Part shown: piece by piece, positions 8,167-23,801 of the stretch | How positions within the stretch are numbered: the first letter of the stretch is position 1 | Layout of the letters: the number at the start of each line of letters is the position of its first letter | Assembly: GCA_026393865.1 (NCBI GenBank) | Contig: JAPKZI010000231.1 | Location: forward strand, 1 to 38,929 | DNA: 38,929 nucleotides | Direction of reading: 5' to 3' | Source: Candidatus Aminicenantota bacterium | Lineage (GTDB): Bacteria; Acidobacteriota; Aminicenantia; Aminicenantales; UBA4085 | Made by a program: the position numbers and the translations under genes | Notes under the pieces: model-generated | What the model saw: only the letters and a program-made list of their open reading frames with translations | Told to the model about the DNA's origin: nothing | Databases searched by the model: none

Positions 8167-9212
8167 TTGAGGTCAAACTGCCGGATGAAGCGGAGGTCGT
8201 TCTCGAAGAAATAGCGCATATCCGAGATCCCGTAGGCGAACATGGCCGTCCGGTCGATGCCCAGGCCGAAAGCCCAGCCGGAATATTTCTCGGGGTCGAT
8301 GTTGACGTTCTTGAACACCTGGGGATCGACCATGCCCGATCCCAGGATTTCCTTCCAGCCCGTCCCGCCGCAGATGCGGCAATCGGGGTCCTTGGCCCCG
8401 CAGGCCAGGCATTCGATGTCCACCTCGGCCGAGGGTTCGGTGAACGGGAAAAAGCTCGGCCGGAAGCGAATCTTGATCTTGTCGCCGAACAGCCGTTTGA
8501 GGAAGAATTCGAGCGTGCCCTTGAGGTGGGCGAAGGTGATCCCCTCGTCCACCACCAGCCCTTCGAGCTGGAAGAACATGGGCAAATGGGTCGGGTCCGG
8601 CACGTCGCGGCGGAAGACCTTGCCGGGGATGACGATCCGGATCGGAGGCTTCTGTTTCTCCATGACCCTGATCTGGACCGGGGACGTGTGCGTCCGGAGG
8701 AGAAGCTTGTCCGTGATGTAGAGCGTGTCCCAGTCGTCGCGCGCCGGATGGTGGGGGGGGAAGTTGAGCGCTTCGAAATTATAATAGTCCGTCTCGATCT
8801 CGGGACCGTCCTCGACCGAAAAGCCCATGGACAGGAAGATGTCCTCGATCTCCCGCTGGAAGAGGCGGATCGGATGGGGCGCGCCCCGGTATCTCTTTTC
8901 GCCCGGGAGGGTCAGGTCGATCTCGCGTTTCGGCTTGGCCGGCGCCTTGAGCCGGGTCTCGAGCCCGGCCAGCGTCTCTTGGATCTCGTTCTTCAGGGCG
9001 TTGACCAGCTGGCCCGCGGCCGGCTTCTCGTCCGGAGCGAAGGCCTTGAGCTCCTCCAGCAGGATCGTGACATAGCCGCGTTTACGGCTCAGAAACTGAT
9101 GGCGCAACTCGTCGAGCGCCTTCAGGTCGTTGATCTGGGCGGACTGCTCCGCCAGTTTCGTTTTATACGCGTCGATCGTATTTTGAAACGTCCTCAGATT
9201 AGGCGATGGCAT
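8163..9212 (-). CDS. pheS: Phenylalanyl-tRNA synthetase alpha subunit
   Basis: This is the catalytic alpha chain of PheRS (349 aa), which charges tRNA-Phe. The N-terminal coiled coil (about residues 1-90) leads into the class II core. Motif 2 lies around [21 protein letters not shown], and motif 3 is [29 protein letters not shown]-like sequence ([18 protein letters not shown]) is the usual substrate loop. A Cys cluster ([18 protein letters not shown]) is common in PheS. The start is the ATG at 9212, overlapping rplT by 14 bp; no other in-frame ATG is near. Confidence 0.97.
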
Positions 9213-9555
9213 CTTTCACTTTCGCGGCGATGCGGCCGAAGGTCTGCGGCTGGTTCACCGCGAGCTCGGCCAGGACCTTCCGGTCGAGTTCGATGTTCAG
9301 TTGCTTGAGGCCTTGGATGAAGCGGCTGTAGGTCAGGCCGTTCAGGTTGGCGGCGGCCTTGACCCGGACGATCCAGAGCCGGCGGAAGTCGCGCTTCCGG
9401 GCGCGGCGGTCGCGGTAAGCGTACGTCAGGGCATGCTCCACCGCCTCCTTGGCTATCCGGTAGTTCGAGCTTCTCGCTCCCCAATAGCCCTTGGCCAGCT
9501 TGAGGACCTTGATCCGCCGGTTTTTCCTTTTAAAACCTCTTTTAACGCGTGGCAT
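9199..9555 (-). CDS. rplT: Ribosomal protein bL20
   Basis: This is bL20 (118 aa), an early-assembling 50S protein that binds 23S rRNA. Diagnostic sequence: [58 protein letters not shown] and [12 protein letters not shown]. The track ORF starts further upstream (9639), but the ATG at 9555 with GGAGTAAAA upstream is the family start. It lies 13 bp downstream of rpmI in the standard infC-rpmI-rplT operon. Confidence 0.97.
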
Positions 9556-9568
9556 TTTTACTCCATTC

Positions 9569-9769
9569 TTAGAACTCGTACGGGAGCATCTTCTTGACGG
9601 TCTTCCGGTCGGCCTGGCTGACGATGGCCTTCCGGCCAAGATTGCGTTTCCGCTTGGACGACTTCTTCGTCAGGATGTGGCTCTTATTGGCCTTCTTGTG
9701 GACGATTTTCTTTTTCGCCGTGACCTGGAACCTCTTTTTCGCTCCCCTGTGGGTTTTTAACTTGGGCAT
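9569..9769 (-). CDS. rpmI: Ribosomal protein bL35
   Basis: This is bL35 (66 aa), a small basic 50S protein: [18 protein letters not shown], then [20 protein letters not shown] and the VKKMLPY ending. AGGAGG lies 5 bp before its ATG, inside the infC reading frame. Its first 86 bases are also coding in another frame as the tail of infC. Confidence 0.97.
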
Positions 9770-10325
9770 CTTTTCCTCCTGATTTCACAGGAACGAGCAG
9801 CGCCGAGACGGCCCAATCCTGTTTTCGAACGTTTCCGTCCGGTTTTCCCTGCCCCTGCACGTCCCCGATCACGCGAGCCAAGACCGCCAAGCCCATCTCC
9901 GGCCGCGATTTCTCGCGGCCCCGGAGCATGATCGTGATCTTGACCTTGTTGCCTTCCTCGAGGAAGCGCTGGACGTGCTTCAGCTTGAACGTGTAGTCGT
10001 GGATGCTGATCTTCGGCCGGAACTTGATCTCCTTGATCTGGATCGTCTTCTGGTGCTTCCGGGCTTCGTGGTCCTTCTTGTGGAGCTCGTAGAGAAACTT
10101 GCCGTAATCCATGATCCGGCAGACCGGCGGGACGGCCGCCGGGGCGATCTCGACCAGGTCCAGCCCTCGCTGCCGGGCGAGAGAGAGGGCGTCGGACGCG
10201 AGCATCACGCCCAACTGGTTCTTCTCCTCGTCGAGGACTCGGATTTCGACGGCGCGTATCATCTCATTGATCTTGTGGGGCTTCGGTCTTCCGCTCGGCG
10301 GAAACGGTTGTCTTCCTCTAAAAAT
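9684..10325 (-). CDS. infC: Translation initiation factor IF-3 with AUU start and C-terminal extension
   Basis: IF-3 (213 aa from the AUU) binds the 30S subunit and proofreads start-codon selection. The track begins at an internal ATG (10262), which cuts off [10 protein letters not shown], part of the conserved N-terminus. Reading upstream, an ATT at 10323-10325 lies 6 bp after a perfect AAAGGAGG and opens the frame, as in the AUU-started infC genes that are autoregulated by IF-3. The core shows [36 protein letters not shown] and [12 protein letters not shown]. The end is unusual: after [11 protein letters not shown] there is no stop. The frame runs 86 nt through rpmI to end ENRPQEGQ, giving a basic tail of roughly 30 residues. 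A frameshift near the end would give RRCSFL and a stop, which resembles IF-3 less. Confidence 0.93.
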
Positions 10326-10331
10326 GATCGG

Positions 10332-10339
10332 CCTCCTTT
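10332..10339 (-). promoter_or_regulatory. Shine-Dalgarno of infC
   Basis: AAAGGAGG on the minus strand overlaps the thrS stop codon (ATGTAAAGGAGG) and sits 6 nt before the ATT start of infC. It is the evidence that decides the non-canonical start and suggests thrS-infC translational coupling. Confidence 0.85.
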
Positions 10340-12122
10340 ACATGCTTACGGTTAAAGATTTATTGTCATTCAATCGTTTGACTTTTGCAAGGAATTCGCC
10401 CGTCTCCACCGGTCCCTTGTCGCCCTGGCCGTGGACGCGGAGCGAGGCGGTGCCGGCCACCACCTCCTTGTCGCCGACGACCAGGATGAGCGGGATCTTG
10501 TGGAGCTCGGCCTCGCGGATCTTGTAATTGACCTTCTCCCGGCGTTCATCGACCTTGGCCCGGAGACCGTTCTCGTCGAAGAAGGCCTCGAGCTTGCGGG
10601 CGTATCCGACGTGCCGGTCGGCGATGGGCAGGATCAGGATCTGGACGGGCGCCAGCCAAAGCGGGAAAGCGCCGTTGTAATGCTCGATGAGGACCCCGAA
10701 GAACCGCTCGAGGGACCCCAGCAGGGCCCGGTGGACCATGTACGGGCGGTGCTCCTTGCCGTCCTCGCCGACGAAGGTCATGTCGAACCGTTCGGGATTG
10801 TTGAAGTCGAACTGGATGGTCGTGCACTGCCAGAGGCGGCCGATGGCGTCCTTGACCTTGATGTCGATCTTCGGGCCGTAAAAGACCGCCTCGCCTTCCT
10901 TCCGCTCATAGCTCAGGCCGCGGATCTCGAGAGCCTTGACCAGGGACGCCTCGGCCTGGCGCCACATGTCGTCGACCCCGCAGTACTTTCCCGGGTTCTT
11001 GGGGTCGCGGACGGAAAGCTCGATCTTGTTGTCGACGAAGCCGAAAGCGGCCAGGATGTCGATCGAAAAGTCCAGGACGCGCAGGATCTCGTCCTCGATC
11101 TGGTCGGGCGTGCAGAAGATGTGGGCGTCGTCCTGGGTGAAGCCGCGGACGCGCAACAGGCCGTGGAGGACGCCGCTCCGCTCATAGCGATAGACCGTCC
11201 CCAGCTCGGCCCAGCGTAGCGGGAGGTCCCGATAGGACCGGCCCCGGGACTTGTAGATGGAGATGTGAAAGGGGCAGTTCATCGGCTTGGCGTAATAGTT
11301 CTGCCCGTCGATGTCCATCGGCGAATACATCGAGTCCTTGTAGAAATCGAGGTGGCCCGATGTCTGCCAGAGCCGTTCCCGGCCGATATGGGGGGTATAA
11401 AGGACGTCGTAGCCGCCCTTCCAATGCCGCTCTCGCCAGTACTGCTCGATGATCGCCCGAATTCGGGCGCCCTTCGGGTGCCAGAGAACGAGCCCGCTGC
11501 CGACGTTCTCGTCGAAGCTGAAGAGATCCAGTTCGGGCCCGAGCCGGCGGTGATCCCTTTTCTTGGCCTCCTCGAGGAGGAGGAGGTAGTCATCAAGCTC
11601 TTTCTGTGTCGGGAAGGCGGTCCCGTAGATGCGCTGGAGCTGCTGGCCTCTCTCATCGCCTTTCCAATAGGCTCCGGAGACGGACAGGAGCTTGAAATGC
11701 CGGATAGCCCCGGTCGAGGCCAGGTGCGGCCCAAGGCAGAAATCGAGGAAACTCCCCTGCCTGTAACAAGTGACGGAGTCGCCTCCCTTATCCCGGATGA
11801 GCTCGACCTTGAGAGTCTGGCCGCCGTCCGCGAAGAGCTTCAAGGCCTCTGCCTTGGTCATGGTCACTTTTTCGATGGGGACATTCTCGGCGGCGAGCCG
11901 GCGCATTTTCTGTTCGATCTCGTCAAGGTCCTGGACGCTGAACGTCTCGGCGCGCAAAAAGTCGTAAAAAAAGCCGTTGTCCACGGCCGGCCCGATGCCG
12001 ACCTGGGTCCCGGGGAAGAGATCGAGAACGGCGTGGGCCAGGAGGTGGGAGGCGCTGTGCCTCAAGACCTCCAGTTCGCTCTCCGCCTCCTTGTCCGCAT
12101 TCCTCTTATTGTCGTTGTCCAT
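10338..12122 (-). CDS. thrS: Threonyl-tRNA synthetase, lacking the TGS domain
   Basis: This class II synthetase (594 aa; about 642 in E. coli) charges tRNA-Thr. It starts almost directly in the N2 editing domain (LRHSASHLLAHAVLDLFPGT, with the HxxxH zinc/editing motif; CLGPHLASTG further on), so the usual N-terminal ~60-residue TGS domain is missing. The catalytic core has MNCPFHISIYKSRGRSYRDLPLR (motif 2 region with its Zn Cys), RVRGFTQDDAHIFC, and motif 3 near MVHRALLGSLERFFGVLIEHY. The C-terminal anticodon-binding domain is complete (PVQILILPIADRHVGYA). It heads the infC-rpmI-rplT-pheST run. A TATGAT -10-like box lies 19 nt upstream of the ATG. Confidence 0.96.
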   Translation of the reverse strand: MDNDNKRNADKEAESELEVLRHSASHLLAHAVLDLFPGTQVGIGPAVDNGFFYDFLRAETFSVQDLDEIEQKMRRLAAENVPIEKVTMTKAEALKLFADGGQTLKVELIRDKGGDSVTCYRQGSFLDFCLGPHLASTGAIRHFKLLSVSGAYWKGDERGQQLQRIYGTAFPTQKELDDYLLLLEEAKKRDHRRLGPELDLFSFDENVGSGLVLWHPKGARIRAIIEQYWRERHWKGGYDVLYTPHIGRERLWQTSGHLDFYKDSMYSPMDIDGQNYYAKPMNCPFHISIYKSRGRSYRDLPLRWAELGTVYRYERSGVLHGLLRVRGFTQDDAHIFCTPDQIEDEILRVLDFSIDILAAFGFVDNKIELSVRDPKNPGKYCGVDDMWRQAEASLVKALEIRGLSYERKEGEAVFYGPKIDIKVKDAIGRLWQCTTIQFDFNNPERFDMTFVGEDGKEHRPYMVHRALLGSLERFFGVLIEHYNGAFPLWLAPVQILILPIADRHVGYARKLEAFFDENGLRAKVDERREKVNYKIREAELHKIPLILVVGDKEVVAGTASLRVHGQGDKGPVETGEFLAKVKRLNDNKSLTVSM

Positions 12123-17311: not shown

Positions 17312-19435
17312 ATGGATAAGGACAACGCCCTCGTCCAGGTGACACCGGACGATATCGCCTTCGTCGAGCAGGAGCTGGCCAAGTCGCGCAAACCCTTCCT
17401 GCTCCGGGAGCTCGTCGAGAAGCTGGCCTTCCTCAAGACCGCCGCTCAGCGCATCCAGGACGTGAAGATCTACGACCCGAACAGCCTCTACGAGGTGGGC
17501 GACTCGATCTACAAAGAGTATGACGAACGCCTGACCGTGAGCAGCAAGACCGTCGAGCCCTTCAAGGGAGTGGTGGTCCTGAATGTCGTGAAGAAGATCG
17601 TCTACAAGGGCTTCGACTGCGAGATGCTCGAGGTCGATTACACGGGCGGAGGGACGTTCCGCAAATATATCGACTACATGAAGAAGACCAAGACGCAGGT
17701 CCTCCTCCCGGCGAACTGCGGCGGCGCGAACCAGCCGGCGAAAATCATGGGCAAGGGCGAGGACCCGCGCCTGACCGAGCTGCCGATGACCGACCGGGAC
17801 CTCAAGACTCTCGAGCGGAGCCTGAAGACCGCCATGGCCAAATCTCCGACGTTCTTCTCCTGGAACGAATTCTGGCAGCTCAGCGCCGACCAGCCCGCCA
17901 TCCCCGAAGAGAAGATCAAGGAGATGGAAACCCACCTGGAGACGACAAAGCTTTCGGCGGCCACCGGCGACCTGATCAAAATGTTCCTGGGGTTCGAGGC
18001 CTCGCACGACCTCTTCGACATCCATTGCCTCGGCCTGAACCATCTGCTCGAGACCAAGTATAAAAAGGAGTTCCTCCAGGTCTCTCCGCTCGTCTGGGGA
18101 AAATGGCACCTCAAGAGCGTGCTCAACGCCCTCCCGGAGAACCTCCCCCTGGCGGCCGGGGAAGCGCCGCTCCCCGAATTCGAAACCTCCGAGCCGGTGC
18201 CGGCCGCGCCGTCCCACGAGTTCCCCCTCAAGGTCTACCTGACCTGGCGGGAGATCCTCTCGGGCGGGGTCCGGATCCCCAAGGCGTTCCACAAGGAGTT
18301 ATCCCACTCGCGGGAATACATTTTCACGGACGCCGACGACAACAAGACCCACACCGTCTATTTCTATCCCCAGCAGGGGATCTTCCTGGGGCTCAAGGAC
18401 TTTTTCGCCGCGCATAACATTCCCCAGGGCACGAGCATGACCCTGGAGCGCAAGGGCCCGGTCCAGTTCCACTTCTGGTTGAAGAAATCCAAGAAGAAAC
18501 TGTCCATCGCCAAGCTGGCCTACGATCCGGCGACCGACATGTTCGCCGACGCGGGAGAAGCCCCGACGCTGGCCCTGCCCAACAAGATCATCTATATCGA
18601 ACGCGAAACGGTGCAGAAGCTCATCGCCCTTTACTCCCAAAGGGACGGCCTCAATCTGAGGGACCTGCTGATCCTCATCTTCAAGAGTTTCGGCCTTCCA
18701 TCGGCGAATCATTCGCTCCACTATATGCGCGCTTATCACCTGGTCGACGTTCTGAAAAAGACGTCCCAAGAGGATGTCGAACGGACCCTGCTGAACACCT
18801 TTGAGTTCTCCCAATCCGACAAGAAGAAGGGCATTTTCAATTATCATGAAGCCGCGCCGGCCAAGGTCCTGATCGAGGAGATGGCGGCGGAAGTCCCGGC
18901 CGAGGCGGAGGAGATCGCCGCGGGCGAGATCCCGGTCCTCGAACTTGTCGAGCAGTTGGGAGAGGATCTCGATCTCGATATCGCGGCCGCCGAGCTCGAG
19001 CAAAAGCCCAAAGCGGAGGCCGGCGGTCCGGCGGCCAAGAAAGAAAAGCCGCACAAGAAGAAAAAACCAACGTCCGAAGGCGAAAAAGCGCCGCACCCGA
19101 AAAAGAGCGAACGCCGGGTCATCGAAGAGCGGATCGCCGAGGAAGAGTCCGAACTCGAAGCTCTCTACGCCGGGAAGGCGGTCGAGGACGAGGAGATCGA
19201 AGGCGCCGAGATCGCGGTCGAAGCCGAGGCCGAGGCCGAAGCCCCGGCCAAAGCGCCGGCCGCGGCCAAGGCCGAGGCTCCGGCGGAAGAAGAACCGGCG
19301 GTCGAGGAGGAAGAGCCGAAGCCCGAAGAGGCCAAGCCCGCGGCGGGGGGATTGTTCGGGGACCTCTTCGCCGAAAAGCTCAAGTCCGCGCTGACCAGGA
19401 AGCGGGCGGAAGACGCGCAGAAAAAAGACGATTAA
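17312..19435 (+). CDS. Large unrecognised protein with possible DNA-binding folds and acidic/basic tail
   Basis: A 707-aa protein I cannot assign. It starts 1 bp after the argF stop (SD AAGGATAAC), so it is in that operon. Residues 1-60 (DIAFVEQELAKSRKPFLLRE...) look like a small winged-helix/HARE-like module. Residues about 80-140 contain a beta-rich segment, KGVVVLNVVKKIVYKGFDCEM. Residues about 303-397 (GGVRIPKAFHKELSHSREYI ... GLKDFFAAHNIPQGTSMTLER) resemble the layout of B3/EcoRII-type pseudobarrel DNA-binding domains. Residues about 410-510 are helical (LNLRDLLILIFKSFGLPSA). The last ~170 residues are low complexity, with lysine-rich and Glu/Ala-rich repeats, ending in a basic helix. 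There is no signal peptide or membrane segment. The domain guesses are by-eye resemblance only. Confidence 0.85.
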   Translation: MDKDNALVQVTPDDIAFVEQELAKSRKPFLLRELVEKLAFLKTAAQRIQDVKIYDPNSLYEVGDSIYKEYDERLTVSSKTVEPFKGVVVLNVVKKIVYKGFDCEMLEVDYTGGGTFRKYIDYMKKTKTQVLLPANCGGANQPAKIMGKGEDPRLTELPMTDRDLKTLERSLKTAMAKSPTFFSWNEFWQLSADQPAIPEEKIKEMETHLETTKLSAATGDLIKMFLGFEASHDLFDIHCLGLNHLLETKYKKEFLQVSPLVWGKWHLKSVLNALPENLPLAAGEAPLPEFETSEPVPAAPSHEFPLKVYLTWREILSGGVRIPKAFHKELSHSREYIFTDADDNKTHTVYFYPQQGIFLGLKDFFAAHNIPQGTSMTLERKGPVQFHFWLKKSKKKLSIAKLAYDPATDMFADAGEAPTLALPNKIIYIERETVQKLIALYSQRDGLNLRDLLILIFKSFGLPSANHSLHYMRAYHLVDVLKKTSQEDVERTLLNTFEFSQSDKKKGIFNYHEAAPAKVLIEEMAAEVPAEAEEIAAGEIPVLELVEQLGEDLDLDIAAAELEQKPKAEAGGPAAKKEKPHKKKKPTSEGEKAPHPKKSERRVIEERIAEEESELEALYAGKAVEDEEIEGAEIAVEAEAEAEAPAKAPAAAKAEAPAEEEPAVEEEEPKPEEAKPAAGGLFGDLFAEKLKSALTRKRAEDAQKKDD

Positions 19436-19451: not shown

Positions 19452-20228
19452 TTAAAGGATCGCCCGCGTCGAACCGTCCCGGCGGGTCACTCCCATCTCG
19501 TCCAGAAATTCGAGGATCGGGATGGCGAACTTGCGGCTGAGGCCGGTCATCGTTTTGAAGTCGGCCACACTCAGCTCTTTCCTGCCCAGACCCCGGATCT
19601 TGGCGATGATCCCGTCCAACCAAGCGGCGGGAAAATAAAAGCCGGCGGGGATCACCACGACCTTCTTCCGCTCGATGAGGATATCGAGCAGGCTCTCGAG
19701 CTTTTGCGGAGTGAGGGGGATTCGCTCGAGGATCTCCTTGGTCGTCAAAGCCTGGAACTCCCCCTCGAAACACGTCGTCTCGAGCTTCCGGAGAAGCTGT
19801 TCCTCCCGGGGGGGGAGCTGACGCCGGAAATCCGCCAGGGCGAACTCTCCGCTCTCCTGCTTGAGCCGGCCGTCATGGACGAGCGTCATCACGGCCAGGA
19901 GGAGGATCTTGGCCGGCGCGTCGAACCTTTTTTTCAGCCGGTCGAGCGAGATGCCGTTCTCTTTCGGATTTTTCTGGTGAAATTGGGAAATGTGCGGCAG
20001 GATCTTTTGCCCGAGGAAATCGACGCTTTCGCGGGAGACGATGAACAGCGGAGCGAAGGAAAGGATCCGGACCTGGCCTTTTTCCTCAAGCGTCCCGGCC
20101 AGCTCCGCCAACTTCGCCGCGTCGAGGGGCAGCCGTTCCTCCGCTTCGCTCTCCCGCAGGCCCTTGAGGCCTTTCTCGCGGGCCAGTTCGAGGAGGATAT
20201 CGGCTTCACCGGCGGGCTTGGTCTTCAT
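19452..20228 (-). CDS. Stand-alone SelB C-terminal winged-helix module
   Basis: 258 aa that align by eye with the C-terminal half of the selenocysteine elongation factor SelB. The C-terminus, LSVADFKTMTGLSRKFAIPILEFLDEMGVTRRDGSTR, is the hallmark of the last SelB winged helix, which grips the SECIS hairpin in selenoprotein mRNAs. LFIVSRESVDFLGQKILPHI and the lysine/leucine helices match the preceding winged helices. The EF-Tu-like GTPase domains 1-3 (~370 residues) are absent: the ORF has its own ATG and promoter-like -10 box, and rnr ends 96 bp upstream. Reading frames are intact, so this looks like a retained orphan module rather than fresh decay. It might bind RNA, pair with a separately encoded GTPase, or have been repurposed. 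It is convergent with the preceding gene, 16 bp apart. Confidence 0.85.
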   Translation of the reverse strand: MKTKPAGEADILLELAREKGLKGLRESEAEERLPLDAAKLAELAGTLEEKGQVRILSFAPLFIVSRESVDFLGQKILPHISQFHQKNPKENGISLDRLKKRFDAPAKILLLAVMTLVHDGRLKQESGEFALADFRRQLPPREEQLLRKLETTCFEGEFQALTTKEILERIPLTPQKLESLLDILIERKKVVVIPAGFYFPAAWLDGIIAKIRGLGRKELSVADFKTMTGLSRKFAIPILEFLDEMGVTRRDGSTRAIL

Positions 20229-20237
20229 GGTTCGCTG

Positions 20238-20243
20238 ATTATA
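20238..20243 (-). promoter_or_regulatory. -10 box of the SelB-like gene
   Basis: A perfect TATAAT lies on the minus strand, 9 nt before the ATG at 20228, with no Shine-Dalgarno between. This suggests an almost leaderless transcript. No good -35 is seen at the expected distance. Confidence 0.5.
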
Positions 20244-20323: not shown

Positions 20324-22408
20324 CTAATCCCCCCTCCCCCCCTTTAGCAAAGGGGGGGACTGCTGGTCGGCGGGGACCAGGCTCATCCGCCGCAGGACGG
20401 GATCCACGGCGGCCAAGATCACATGGAGGGATTGGCCGACCTCGAATGTCTTCCCCGATCGTCTCCCCGACAGGACCCCGCGCGTCCGTTCCTGGAAATA
20501 ATCGCCGCCGAGGTCCTCGTAAGAAACGACGCCCTTGACGAAATAATCGTTGAGCTCCACGGCCAGCCCCGCCCGGGTGATGTCGACGACGATGCCGGTG
20601 AATTCCTCGCCCAGTTTCTCCTTGAGAAAACGGAAGATCCGCCATTCGACGAGGTCCTGCTCCGCGCCGGCCGCCTTTCGCTCCTGCCCGGACGCGTGGA
20701 GGGCGACGGCCGCGAGGGGCTCCGCCGCGGGGGGAAGCCCCGCCAGGACCCGCTTGAGAAGGCGATGGACCGCGAGGTCCGGGTAGCGGCGGATGGGGGA
20801 GGTGAAATGCGTATATTCCTTTTTGGCCAGACCGTAATGCCCGAGGTTCTCTTCGGAATAAACGGCCAGCTTCATCGCCCGCAGAACCTGGACGTTGACG
20901 TATTTTTCGCCGGGCTTGCCTTCGGCCTCTCGAATGGCCCGCTGCAGGTCGGCCGAGCGGATCTTGTCGGGCTTGGGAAGGGCGATCCCGAAATGAAAGA
21001 GGATCTCGCGGAGTTTTTCCAGGTCGGCGGTGGAGGGCGGAGGGTGGACGCGGTAGATCGAGGCGACGTCTTTGCGGTTAAGGAAAGAGGCCACGGCGAC
21101 GTTCGCCGCCACCATGAACTCCTCGATGAGCTTGTGGGCCTCGTTCTGGGCGAAAGTCGCGATCGAGGCGAGACGGCCTTCCTTGTAAACGAGCTCGGGC
21201 TCGAGGAGGTCGAAATCGAGGCTGCCTTCGCCGACGCGCTTCCCCCGGAGGAGCCGGGCCAGGTCCCGCATGATCAGGAGGTCCGGGACGAGGGCGGCCT
21301 GCTTCCGCCGTTCGTCCGCCTCGTTCTCGAAGATCTTGAACACGGAGGTGTAGGTCAGCCGCTCGGCCGTCCGGATGATCGAGGGATGAAAATCGGCGTG
21401 GACGACGCTTCCGTCCGCGTCGATCTCCATCACCGCCGAGACCGTCAGCCGGTCCTCGCGGGGCCTCAGGCTGCAAATGTCGTTCGACAGCTTCTCCGGG
21501 AGCATGGGCAAGGTCAGGTCGGGGAAATAAACGCTCGTCCCGCGGGCGCAGGCGTCCCGGTCGAGGGCCGATCCCGCCTCGACATAATGGGATACGTCGG
21601 CGATGTGGACCCCGAGGAGATAGCGGCCGCCTTCGAGTTTTCTGACGCTCACCGCGTCGTCGAAATCCTGGGCCGTCTCGCCGTCGATGGTGAACGTCGT
21701 CCAGCCGCGGTGATCGACGCGGCCCGCGGCGAGGACGGGGCGGCCGGCGGCCTCATCGGCCTCGGCCAGGGCCGGCCCGGAAAATTCCTCCGCCAGACCG
21801 TATTTCCGGATGACGACCTTGGTGTCCACGCCGGGCGCGTCCGGCATCCCGAAGACCTCGGTGATCGTCAGGCGGCCGCGGTCCGCGGCGATGACCTCCC
21901 CCGGCGCGGGAAAGAACCCGCCCCGCGAAACGAGCCGGATCTCCTCGAGCGAGGGGGCGTCGAACGGAACGAGGACGGGCGCGCCGGAGCGCTCTTCGTA
22001 GAGGCCGATGATGCTCTTCTTTTCCTTTTTGAGGATGCGCACGACCCGGCCTTCGGATTTCCCTTTGAGTCCGCGCTCCGCGAAGAGGATTTCGACGGTG
22101 TCGCCCTGCATCGCTCCTTTGGCGAAACGCCCGGGAACAAAGACATCGGCCGTCGACCGGTCTTCGGGGACGACAAACCCGAAGCCCCGCCCCGAGGTTT
22201 CGAACCGGCCGCGGAGGAGGTCGGACTGGACCGGGAGGAGGTAGCGGTTCTTGACCCGGCGGATGAGCTTTTTGTTCTCCAGGTCGATGAGGCGCCCTTC
22301 GAGCTTGGCTCGTTCCTTGCGGGTGACGCGGAGTTCCTTGAAGATGTGCTGGAGGGTCAACCCCTGCCGGTTCCGGCGGAGAAGCTCGAGGATGCGTTGT
22401 TCTTCCAT
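20324..22408 (-). CDS. rnr: Ribonuclease R (RNB-family 3'-5' exoribonuclease)
   Basis: A 694-aa processive 3'-5' exoribonuclease that degrades structured RNA. It has an N-terminal winged helix (EEQRILELLRRNRQGLTLQ) and then cold-shock/OB domains (GRGFGFVVPEDRSTADVFV). The RNB catalytic domain has DGETAQDFDDAVSVRKLEGG (metal-binding Asps), LLGVHIADVSHYVEAGSALD and FPDLTLPMLPEKLSNDICSL, with TSPIRRYPDLAVHRLL later. A C-terminal S1 domain (FTGIVVDITRAGLAVELNDYFV) follows. The last 11 residues, SPPLLKGGRGD, are encoded by a perfect palindrome and look like an acquired tail. It lies 9 bp downstream of the unknown gene at 22418. Confidence 0.95.
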   Translation of the reverse strand: MEEQRILELLRRNRQGLTLQHIFKELRVTRKERAKLEGRLIDLENKKLIRRVKNRYLLPVQSDLLRGRFETSGRGFGFVVPEDRSTADVFVPGRFAKGAMQGDTVEILFAERGLKGKSEGRVVRILKKEKKSIIGLYEERSGAPVLVPFDAPSLEEIRLVSRGGFFPAPGEVIAADRGRLTITEVFGMPDAPGVDTKVVIRKYGLAEEFSGPALAEADEAAGRPVLAAGRVDHRGWTTFTIDGETAQDFDDAVSVRKLEGGRYLLGVHIADVSHYVEAGSALDRDACARGTSVYFPDLTLPMLPEKLSNDICSLRPREDRLTVSAVMEIDADGSVVHADFHPSIIRTAERLTYTSVFKIFENEADERRKQAALVPDLLIMRDLARLLRGKRVGEGSLDFDLLEPELVYKEGRLASIATFAQNEAHKLIEEFMVAANVAVASFLNRKDVASIYRVHPPPSTADLEKLREILFHFGIALPKPDKIRSADLQRAIREAEGKPGEKYVNVQVLRAMKLAVYSEENLGHYGLAKKEYTHFTSPIRRYPDLAVHRLLKRVLAGLPPAAEPLAAVALHASGQERKAAGAEQDLVEWRIFRFLKEKLGEEFTGIVVDITRAGLAVELNDYFVKGVVSYEDLGGDYFQERTRGVLSGRRSGKTFEVGQSLHVILAAVDPVLRRMSLVPADQQSPPLLKGGRGD
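20336..20358. repeat. Palindrome CCCCCCCTTT-AGC-AAAGGGGGGG at the rnr 3' end
   Basis: Perfect 10-bp arms with an AGC loop. It lies inside the rnr reading frame, just before the TAG, and encodes the SPPLLKGG tail. A palindrome of this type giving a PPLLKGG tail recurs at gene ends in many bacteria. The rest of the rnr-selB gap (20229-20323) shows only the -10 box noted above. Confidence 0.8.
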
Positions 22409-22417
22409 GCCGGTCTC

Positions 22418-23053
22418 TCAATAATAAAATGGCGAAAGATAGGGAATCCTGTGCCGGTCGCGGACGCGCTTGACGAGCTTGAGATCGACCGCAGCCGCCA
22501 GCGCCGCCCCGCGCAGGCTCTTGTGCTCGGCCAGGATCTCCCTTTGGGCGGCCGCCCGTTCTTCCGCGCCGGACCGGGCCGCCAGAATTTTTTCCAGGTC
22601 GGCCTCGAGCCGTTCCAGCGCCTCGTCGGAAACGGCGGACCTGGCCAGTTCCTTCCGCGCCTCAAGAAAGATCGGCTTCAAGGGGCCGATGCCGTTCGGG
22701 AGACTTTTCAAGAAGCCCTCGACCTCGGCCCGGATCCTCGTCCATTTATCGCTCCGGCCGGGAGGCTGTCTCGTCCCGCCGACCTTGCGATCGCGATCGC
22801 GCTCGAACGCGCTTTCGACCTGGGCCCGGCAGAACGAGAGGGCAAGAACCTTCCCCCTCATCAGAGCTCCGGCGCGGCGGGCCGCGAAAGCCTTCTCGAT
22901 CCCCTCCAGGACGATCGGAAGCGGGACGCCGGTCCGTTCCCAGGCGGAGATGAGGTCCAGGTCTTTGGCCGACAGAAAGAAGGGGGCGCCGCGCCGATCC
23001 AGGAAATGCCGGGCGATCTCCTGGAAATAGCGTTCGCTAACGGTTTCGCTCAT
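22418..23053 (-). CDS. Unrecognised 211-aa protein
   Basis: A soluble, mostly helical protein I do not recognise. It begins MSETVSERYFQEIARHFLDR, then RRGAPFFLSAKDLDLISAWE and VPLPIVLEGIEKAFAARRAG, followed by a basic linker (RDRDRKVGGTRQPPGRSDKW) and long charged helices. The track begins at 23215, but that extension runs antiparallel to nothing useful and overlaps coaX by 179 bp. The ATG at 23053 overlaps coaX by only 17 bp and is the likelier start. It lies between coaX and rnr on the same strand. No catalytic motif is visible; a helical DNA- or RNA-binding adaptor is possible but unproven. Confidence 0.8.
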   Translation of the reverse strand: MSETVSERYFQEIARHFLDRRGAPFFLSAKDLDLISAWERTGVPLPIVLEGIEKAFAARRAGALMRGKVLALSFCRAQVESAFERDRDRKVGGTRQPPGRSDKWTRIRAEVEGFLKSLPNGIGPLKPIFLEARKELARSAVSDEALERLEADLEKILAARSGAEERAAAQREILAEHKSLRGAALAAAVDLKLVKRVRDRHRIPYLSPFYY

Positions 23054-23801
23054 AAATGATCCGGAGGCCTTCCAGGACGAGGTTCGGCTCGTAGGCCGTG
23101 ATGGTTTTGAGCTCGGCGCTGATCTGATCGCCGAAACCGCCGGTGGCAATGACCTTGGCCTCTTCGCCCAGCTCCTTGCGGATCTCCCCGATGATGTTAC
23201 GGACGAGGCCGACATAGCCGAAATAGAGGCCCGACTGCATGCTGGCGACCGTCGTTTTTCCGACGGCCTTGGCCGGTTTTTTGATCTCGATCCGGGGCAG
23301 TTTGGCCGTTTTCAGGTACAGGGCTTCCGCGGAGATCTGGATGCCGGGGGCGATCGCGCCGCCCAGGTATTCGCCCTTGGCCGAGACGGCGTCGAAGGTC
23401 GTGGCGGTCCCGAAATCCAGGACGATGCACGGCCCGCCGATCTTTTCGTAGGCGGCCACGGCCGCCACGACCCGGTCGGCGCCCACTTCGAGCGGGGCTT
23501 CGTAAAGGATGGGCATCCCCGTTCGCAAGCCGGGTCCGACAACCAGGGCTTTGAGGCGGAAAAGGTCGTGGCTCAAGGTCTGGAAGATCGGCGTGAGCGG
23601 CGGAACGACGCTCGAGACGATCACGGCCTTGACCGCGGCGGGGTCCAGTCCGGCCGACGCGAGCAGATTCCGAAGGATGATCCCGTACTCATCGCCGGTC
23701 TTGTCCCGGTCCGAACGGACCCGCCAGTGATGGGCCAGGGTCTTGTCCTTGAACAGGCCGATGGCCACCGTGGTGTTGCCTATATCGAGAGCCAAGAGCA
23801 T
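23037..23801 (-). CDS. coaX: Type III pantothenate kinase
   Basis: CoaX (254 aa) phosphorylates pantothenate, the first step of coenzyme A synthesis, and unlike type I enzymes is not feedback-inhibited by CoA. It belongs to the ASKHA fold: LLALDIGNTTVAIGLFKD is the phosphate-1 loop, SSVVPPLTPIF follows, then EVGADRVVAAVAAYEKIGGP (GADR pantothenate motif), IVLDFGTATTFDAVSAKGEY (phosphate-2) and YLGGAIAPGI. VIATGGFGD is the adenosine motif. AAGGAG precedes the ATG at 23801. A family A repeat separates it from birA upstream. Confidence 0.96.
   Translation of the reverse strand: MLLALDIGNTTVAIGLFKDKTLAHHWRVRSDRDKTGDEYGIILRNLLASAGLDPAAVKAVIVSSVVPPLTPIFQTLSHDLFRLKALVVGPGLRTGMPILYEAPLEVGADRVVAAVAAYEKIGGPCIVLDFGTATTFDAVSAKGEYLGGAIAPGIQISAEALYLKTAKLPRIEIKKPAKAVGKTTVASMQSGLYFGYVGLVRNIIGEIRKELGEEAKVIATGGFGDQISAELKTITAYEPNLVLEGLRIIYERNR

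Follow-up and report, generated by a model that had tools for sequence, protein, structure and literature searches.

A GTPase-free derivative of the selenocysteine factor SelB, retained across the class Aminicenantia and probably working outside selenocysteine decoding

Results

A SelB-derived protein without a GTPase

The window (the whole 38,929-nucleotide stretch of DNA that we analysed) carries on its minus strand a gene for a 258-amino acid (aa) protein, the frame of which starts with ATG and, as the original prediction had stated, is unbroken. The product consists of four winged helices (WH1-4) like those of the RNA-binding, C-terminal half of SelB (Table 1). In Pfam it matches SelB-wing_3 (3e-18) and SelB-wing_2 (2.9e-7), both above cut-off, and its residues 12-257 align with nearly the entire 1LVA, the crystallised C-terminal fragment of Moorella SelB (phmmer, 9.4e-21). 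An AlphaFold model built from a 44-sequence alignment has a mean pLDDT of 92.4 and displays four winged helices; in Foldseek (2.9e-16) all of the top five places go to structures of SelB-C, four of which have SECIS RNA bound, and the SelB-C complexes 2UWM, 2PLY, 1WSU and 2PJP are among the matches. Alignment, model and Foldseek thus agree on a complete four-winged-helix SelB half, and the structure prediction proposed as a check on this claim returned the SelB-C fold. The signature GLSRKFAIPILEFLDEMGVTRR is present too, with WH4 residues as in SelB.

Table 1. Features of the SelB-C-like gene and its surroundings in the window
Feature	Position	Strand	Basis or remark
Stand-alone SelB-C-like gene (258 aa; WH1-WH4; no GTPase, no domains II/III)	19452..20228	-	
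Winged helix 1, residues ~8-65	20034..20207	-	model secondary structure and 1LVA alignment
Winged helix 2, residues ~66-131 (SelB-wing_2)	19836..20033	-	Pfam and model
Winged helix 3, residues ~140-200	19629..19811	-	1LVA alignment and model
Winged helix 4, residues ~201-258 (SelB-wing_3; SelB's SECIS-binding domain)	19455..19628	-	Pfam, model, Foldseek
Signature GLSRKFAIPILEFLDEMGVTRR, residues 229-250	19479..19544	-	sequence, alignment
Likely -10 box TATAAT	20238..20243	-	9 nt before ATG; promoter function predicted
rnr (RNase R), conserved upstream neighbour in Aminicenantales	20324..22408	-	

What marks a bacterial SelB is found here only in part. The C-terminal four-winged-helix array and the conserved SECIS-binding residues of WH4 are there; an EF-Tu-like GTPase domain is absent from the 258-aa protein (no GTP_EFTU match in Pfam), as are domains II and III, and the SelB model TIGR00475 covers the protein only with its own C-terminal part (36 bits vs a cut-off of 242). 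The protein is SelB-derived by fold and descent but is not a SelB, because we tested for a GTPase domain and for a tie to the selenocysteine (Sec) trait (see below) and found neither.

Neighbouring genes and a likely promoter

In the window, 95 nt separate the end of rnr from the SelB-C-like gene, and no GTPase is fused to the latter. The -10 box of its own that had been claimed for the gene does exist as a TATAAT, and the hexamer recurs 8 nt ahead of the ATG in two relatives (L055, L056). Placement and recurrence suggest that the gene may, in the window's family, be transcribed on its own with a very short leader or none, although its promoter function is read from position and motif. In 14 other loci rnr and the stand-alone gene share a 4-nt start-stop overlap, which is best read as frequent translational coupling to the RNase R gene. 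Two further genes, both conserved in Aminicenantales and both without a Pfam match at 0.001, lie on either side: one of 707 aa (17312-19435, plus strand) is convergent to the SelB-C-like gene and one of 265 aa (22418-23215, minus strand) is upstream of rnr. An Rfam scan of the whole window returned tRNA-Val alone.

Most relatives keep domain III

Most relatives are ~360 aa long, and their extra N-terminal ~100 aa align with domain III of SelB. Thus, the family profile aligns to residues 270-636 of the resident SelB (domain III plus WH1-4; 2e-32), one relative (L089) matches Beta-barrel_SelB above the Pfam cut-off, and a 361-aa member, when modelled, aligns along 367 columns to the whole SelB 5LZB and also to EF-Tu in its third domain. 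Members of family f11 are longer still (~470 aa) with a further N-terminal segment collinear with, albeit weakly supported as (E 0.054), domain II. Domain III is gone from the window's own family (f1) and from a separate locus (L070), both of which keep WH1-4; f12, a more divergent branch of ~350 aa, belongs to the same stand-alone family. In one f8 genome (G097; L087:4057-6732) a phosphoglucose isomerase-like protein is joined to the SelB-derived protein by a charged linker within a single open frame.

The gene is near-universal in a class that mostly lacks selA

The family profile matches 135 of 142 Aminicenantia genomes, including all 64 of high quality, and all 51 genera, with intact frames. 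Since two of these genomes (G088, G028) are matched solely via a SelB-sized ORF, the stand-alone gene as such is present in ~133 of the 142. By comparison, selA occurs in 35 of 141 Aminicenantia genomes, so that about three quarters of the class have the stand-alone gene without selA; in the genus Saccharicenans (f6/g33) all 19 sampled genomes carry the former and none the latter (threshold 1e-40). Co-occurrence with selA and tRNA-Sec, as is typical of bacterial SelB, is consequently not seen class-wide for the stand-alone gene. In 18 selA-less genomes, each at least 90% complete, we found no SelB above the TIGR00475 cut-off and no separate SelB-type GTPase half: matches to this model were EF-Tu-sized (~400 aa) and larger translational-GTPase-sized proteins as well as the stand-alone protein itself. 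Nor was a tRNA-Sec recognisable in these 18 genomes, the best RF01852 matches being tRNA-Ser or tRNA-Leu by ARAGORN. Among the best 80 of 192 relatives nearly all come from Aminicenantes, Saccharicenans or Acidobacteria/Acidobacteriota. One single-contig genome (G004, locus L104) has two SelB-sized matches (C1:4053256-4054299 and C1:1215767-1216660) beside its stand-alone gene.

The window's own genome (a MAG) is one of the Sec-bearing minority, and the label 'orphan' given to the gene in the original prediction, correct as regards the missing GTPase fusion, needs qualifying in this respect. The search for Sec genes proposed there turned up a selA-selD-selB cluster on another contig (C139) and, on separate contigs (L017, L018), two genes for tRNA-Sec (tca), be they a genuine pair or one gene duplicated by the assembly. 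While selA and selD appear intact, the resident selB (L113, ~9155-10875) is broken in this assembly: compared with the SelB of its relative it lacks the segment of residues 286-348, and it is frameshifted, which may be real or a fault of assembly. In G086, the closest relative, the stand-alone gene occurs beside an intact SelB of 638 aa.

Tree and gene order point to an eroded ancestral selB

A comparison of stand-alone and fused forms had been proposed as well. In an unrooted tree of 76 sequences (~370 columns), the stand-alone proteins form a single clan apart from all SelBs (support 100/100); SelB from those Aminicenantia that use Sec falls beside E. coli SelB (100/93) and not with most of the remaining acidobacterial SelBs. 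The tree rules out that the stand-alone gene is a recent copy of the resident SelB; from it we infer that the second, selA-selD-selB set of Sec-using Aminicenantia would be of other origin.

Gene order gives a clue to where the stand-alone gene comes from. In Aminicenantales it follows rnr; f9-f11 have it behind pgi, with or without rnr ahead (rnr-pgi-gene, pgi-gene), and f8 also has pgi-gene; the rnr link is missing in f12. In other Acidobacteriota it is full-length selB that sits directly behind pgi (L195, L204, L215) or rnr (L221), albeit at only four of the 37 outside selB loci examined. With these neighbours common to both, the stand-alone gene looks like the ancestral selB, and a loss of the GTPase in place would explain it best. 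The class-wide range, the domain III of most members and the neighbours that mark an eroded ancestral selB all go beyond what the original prediction had in view.

Selection and conservation of WH4

Against the closest relative dN/dS is ~0.18, and it stays at or below ~0.40 in other pairs with unsaturated dS. The most conserved domain is WH4, partly favoured by the search patterns used to collect the relatives. Across 49 stand-alone proteins and 27 SelBs, R232, E240, D243 and T248 are identical, L239 is so with the exception of f12, and K233 and R250 vary between K and R only. A scan for synonymous-codon conservation, which covered rnr, the stand-alone gene, coaX, an ornithine carbamoyltransferase-like gene and the unknown gene upstream of rnr, gave no signal of an embedded RNA target above control genes.

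Discussion

SelB is the factor that delivers selenocysteine, the 21st amino acid; its presence is usually read as a sign of Sec use, and it is regarded as an elongation factor with one purpose. We find its RNA-binding half to be near-universal in a bacterial class where most genomes are without selA, and we think it reasonably probable that the gene has arisen from an ancestral acidobacterial selB by erosion but is still functional, and that its product works outside Sec decoding and probably through stem-loop RNA. The scenario we envisage is that, in the ancestor of Aminicenantia, the selB beside rnr/pgi lost its GTPase domain and retained the RNA-binding half; domain II would have been lost in later lineages, as would domain III in the window's family, leaving WH1-4. 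The product would be a stand-alone protein with a role outside Sec, in which WH4 most likely binds one or more stem-loop RNAs with the residues that SelB uses on SECIS hairpins; in so doing, it may control the fate or translation of the bound RNAs, perhaps together with RNase R. That hairpin RNA outside Sec is the best-supported reading owes to the WH4 residues held in common with SelB, whose WH4 binds a hairpin marked by a bulged U and by GU in the loop (PMC8704476). Of the 'new RNA or DNA target' allowed for in the original prediction it is the RNA that fits best, with no DNA-regulator family above cut-off. As for RNase R, the link is speculative: it stems from gene coupling, and adjacency is not interaction. 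To our minds, the wider proposal that Aminicenantia employ a GTPase-free SelB derivative as a core RNA-hairpin-binding regulator, possibly as an RNA adaptor of RNase R, can be put forward only tentatively.

Several other readings have to be weighed against an RNA-binding selB remnant. RNase R takes part in the quality control of RNA and ribosomes, and with this frequent neighbour, with an EF-Tu-like barrel domain III retained in most members and with SelB itself acting on the ribosome (5LZB), the protein could be a ribosome- or tRNA-associated factor (in rescue, hibernation or a delivery-like step) that docks domain III and the winged helices on the translation machinery rather than on a specific mRNA hairpin. 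We regard this as rather doubtful, in that f1 and L070 dispense with domain III yet keep WH1-4, WH4 above all, and no GTPase remains to power delivery. Winged helices frequently bind DNA, and the window protein has a MarR_2 match, albeit a weak one (14.5 bits vs a cut-off of 27); a DNA-binding transcription regulator that uses its winged helices in MarR fashion is unlikely, however, given that regulator matches fall below cut-off in the relatives as well, that the conserved surface is the one with which SelB contacts RNA, and that the four-domain arrangement agrees with SelB-C.

Even less probable, we feel, is a helper or antagonist of Sec decoding that would bind SECIS hairpins and tune or repress selenoprotein messages, or else partner a split SelB GTPase. 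Both options had been raised by the original prediction, and WH4 residues identical to those of SelB, as well as a window genome with selA, selD, tRNA-Sec and a selB broken in the assembly, are in keeping with them. Against this, most carriers keep the gene without selA, the 18 genomes checked have neither SelB nor recognisable tRNA-Sec nor a GTPase half to pair with, and G086 carries the gene despite its intact SelB; a split-GTPase partner thus finds no support, and repression of SECIS messages cannot be what the family does in general. Decay into a functionless fragment, in line as it may be with the stepwise loss of N-terminal domains across lineages, can be dismissed in view of purifying selection, a confident fold and intact frames throughout the class, rather than in a single strain.

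If Aminicenantia do rely on the protein as a core RNA-hairpin-binding regulator, an RNA role independent of Sec would have been present in bacterial SelB already, or would come to it readily, and would be strong enough to outlast the loss of Sec class-wide. The stepwise domain loss can be traced over related lineages at a locus marked by neighbouring genes, and whether any targets of SECIS-type hairpin recognition lie outside Sec becomes a testable question. For annotation, winged-helix matches alone are no basis for calling a SelB or for inferring the Sec trait.

How does the stand-alone family compare with known systems? With bacterial SelB (TIGR00475; 1LVA, 2UWM, 2PLY, 5LZB) it shares the order of the four winged helices, the WH4 residues, domain III in most relatives, and the pgi/rnr neighbours of full-length selB in four other Acidobacteriota. 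It differs in having no GTPase domain, at best a possible trace of domain II (in f11 only) and, in the window, no domain III, and in being found also in genomes without selA, SelB and tRNA-Sec. In eukaryotes, SECISBP2 (SBP2) has a role in Sec decoding and an RNA-binding domain of the L7Ae type. There, too, RNA is recognised by a protein apart from the elongation GTPase, but the domain is unrelated and the role is in Sec, whereas the stand-alone family exists without it. A GTPase-less SelB-C family we did not find described in the open-licence literature, and the consulted passages of a survey of translational GTPases name no such SelB remnant (PMC4342817), which is no surprise given that the protein has no GTPase domain. 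Closest among published proteins comes archaeal aSelBL, in which the GTPase half, though often disrupted, is retained (G domain with domains II and III) and the C-terminal domain is missing (PMC3037878): it likewise is a SelB derivative that ranges wider than Sec use, yet it is archaeal and has kept the opposite half, so that the window protein falls outside the definition of aSelBL.
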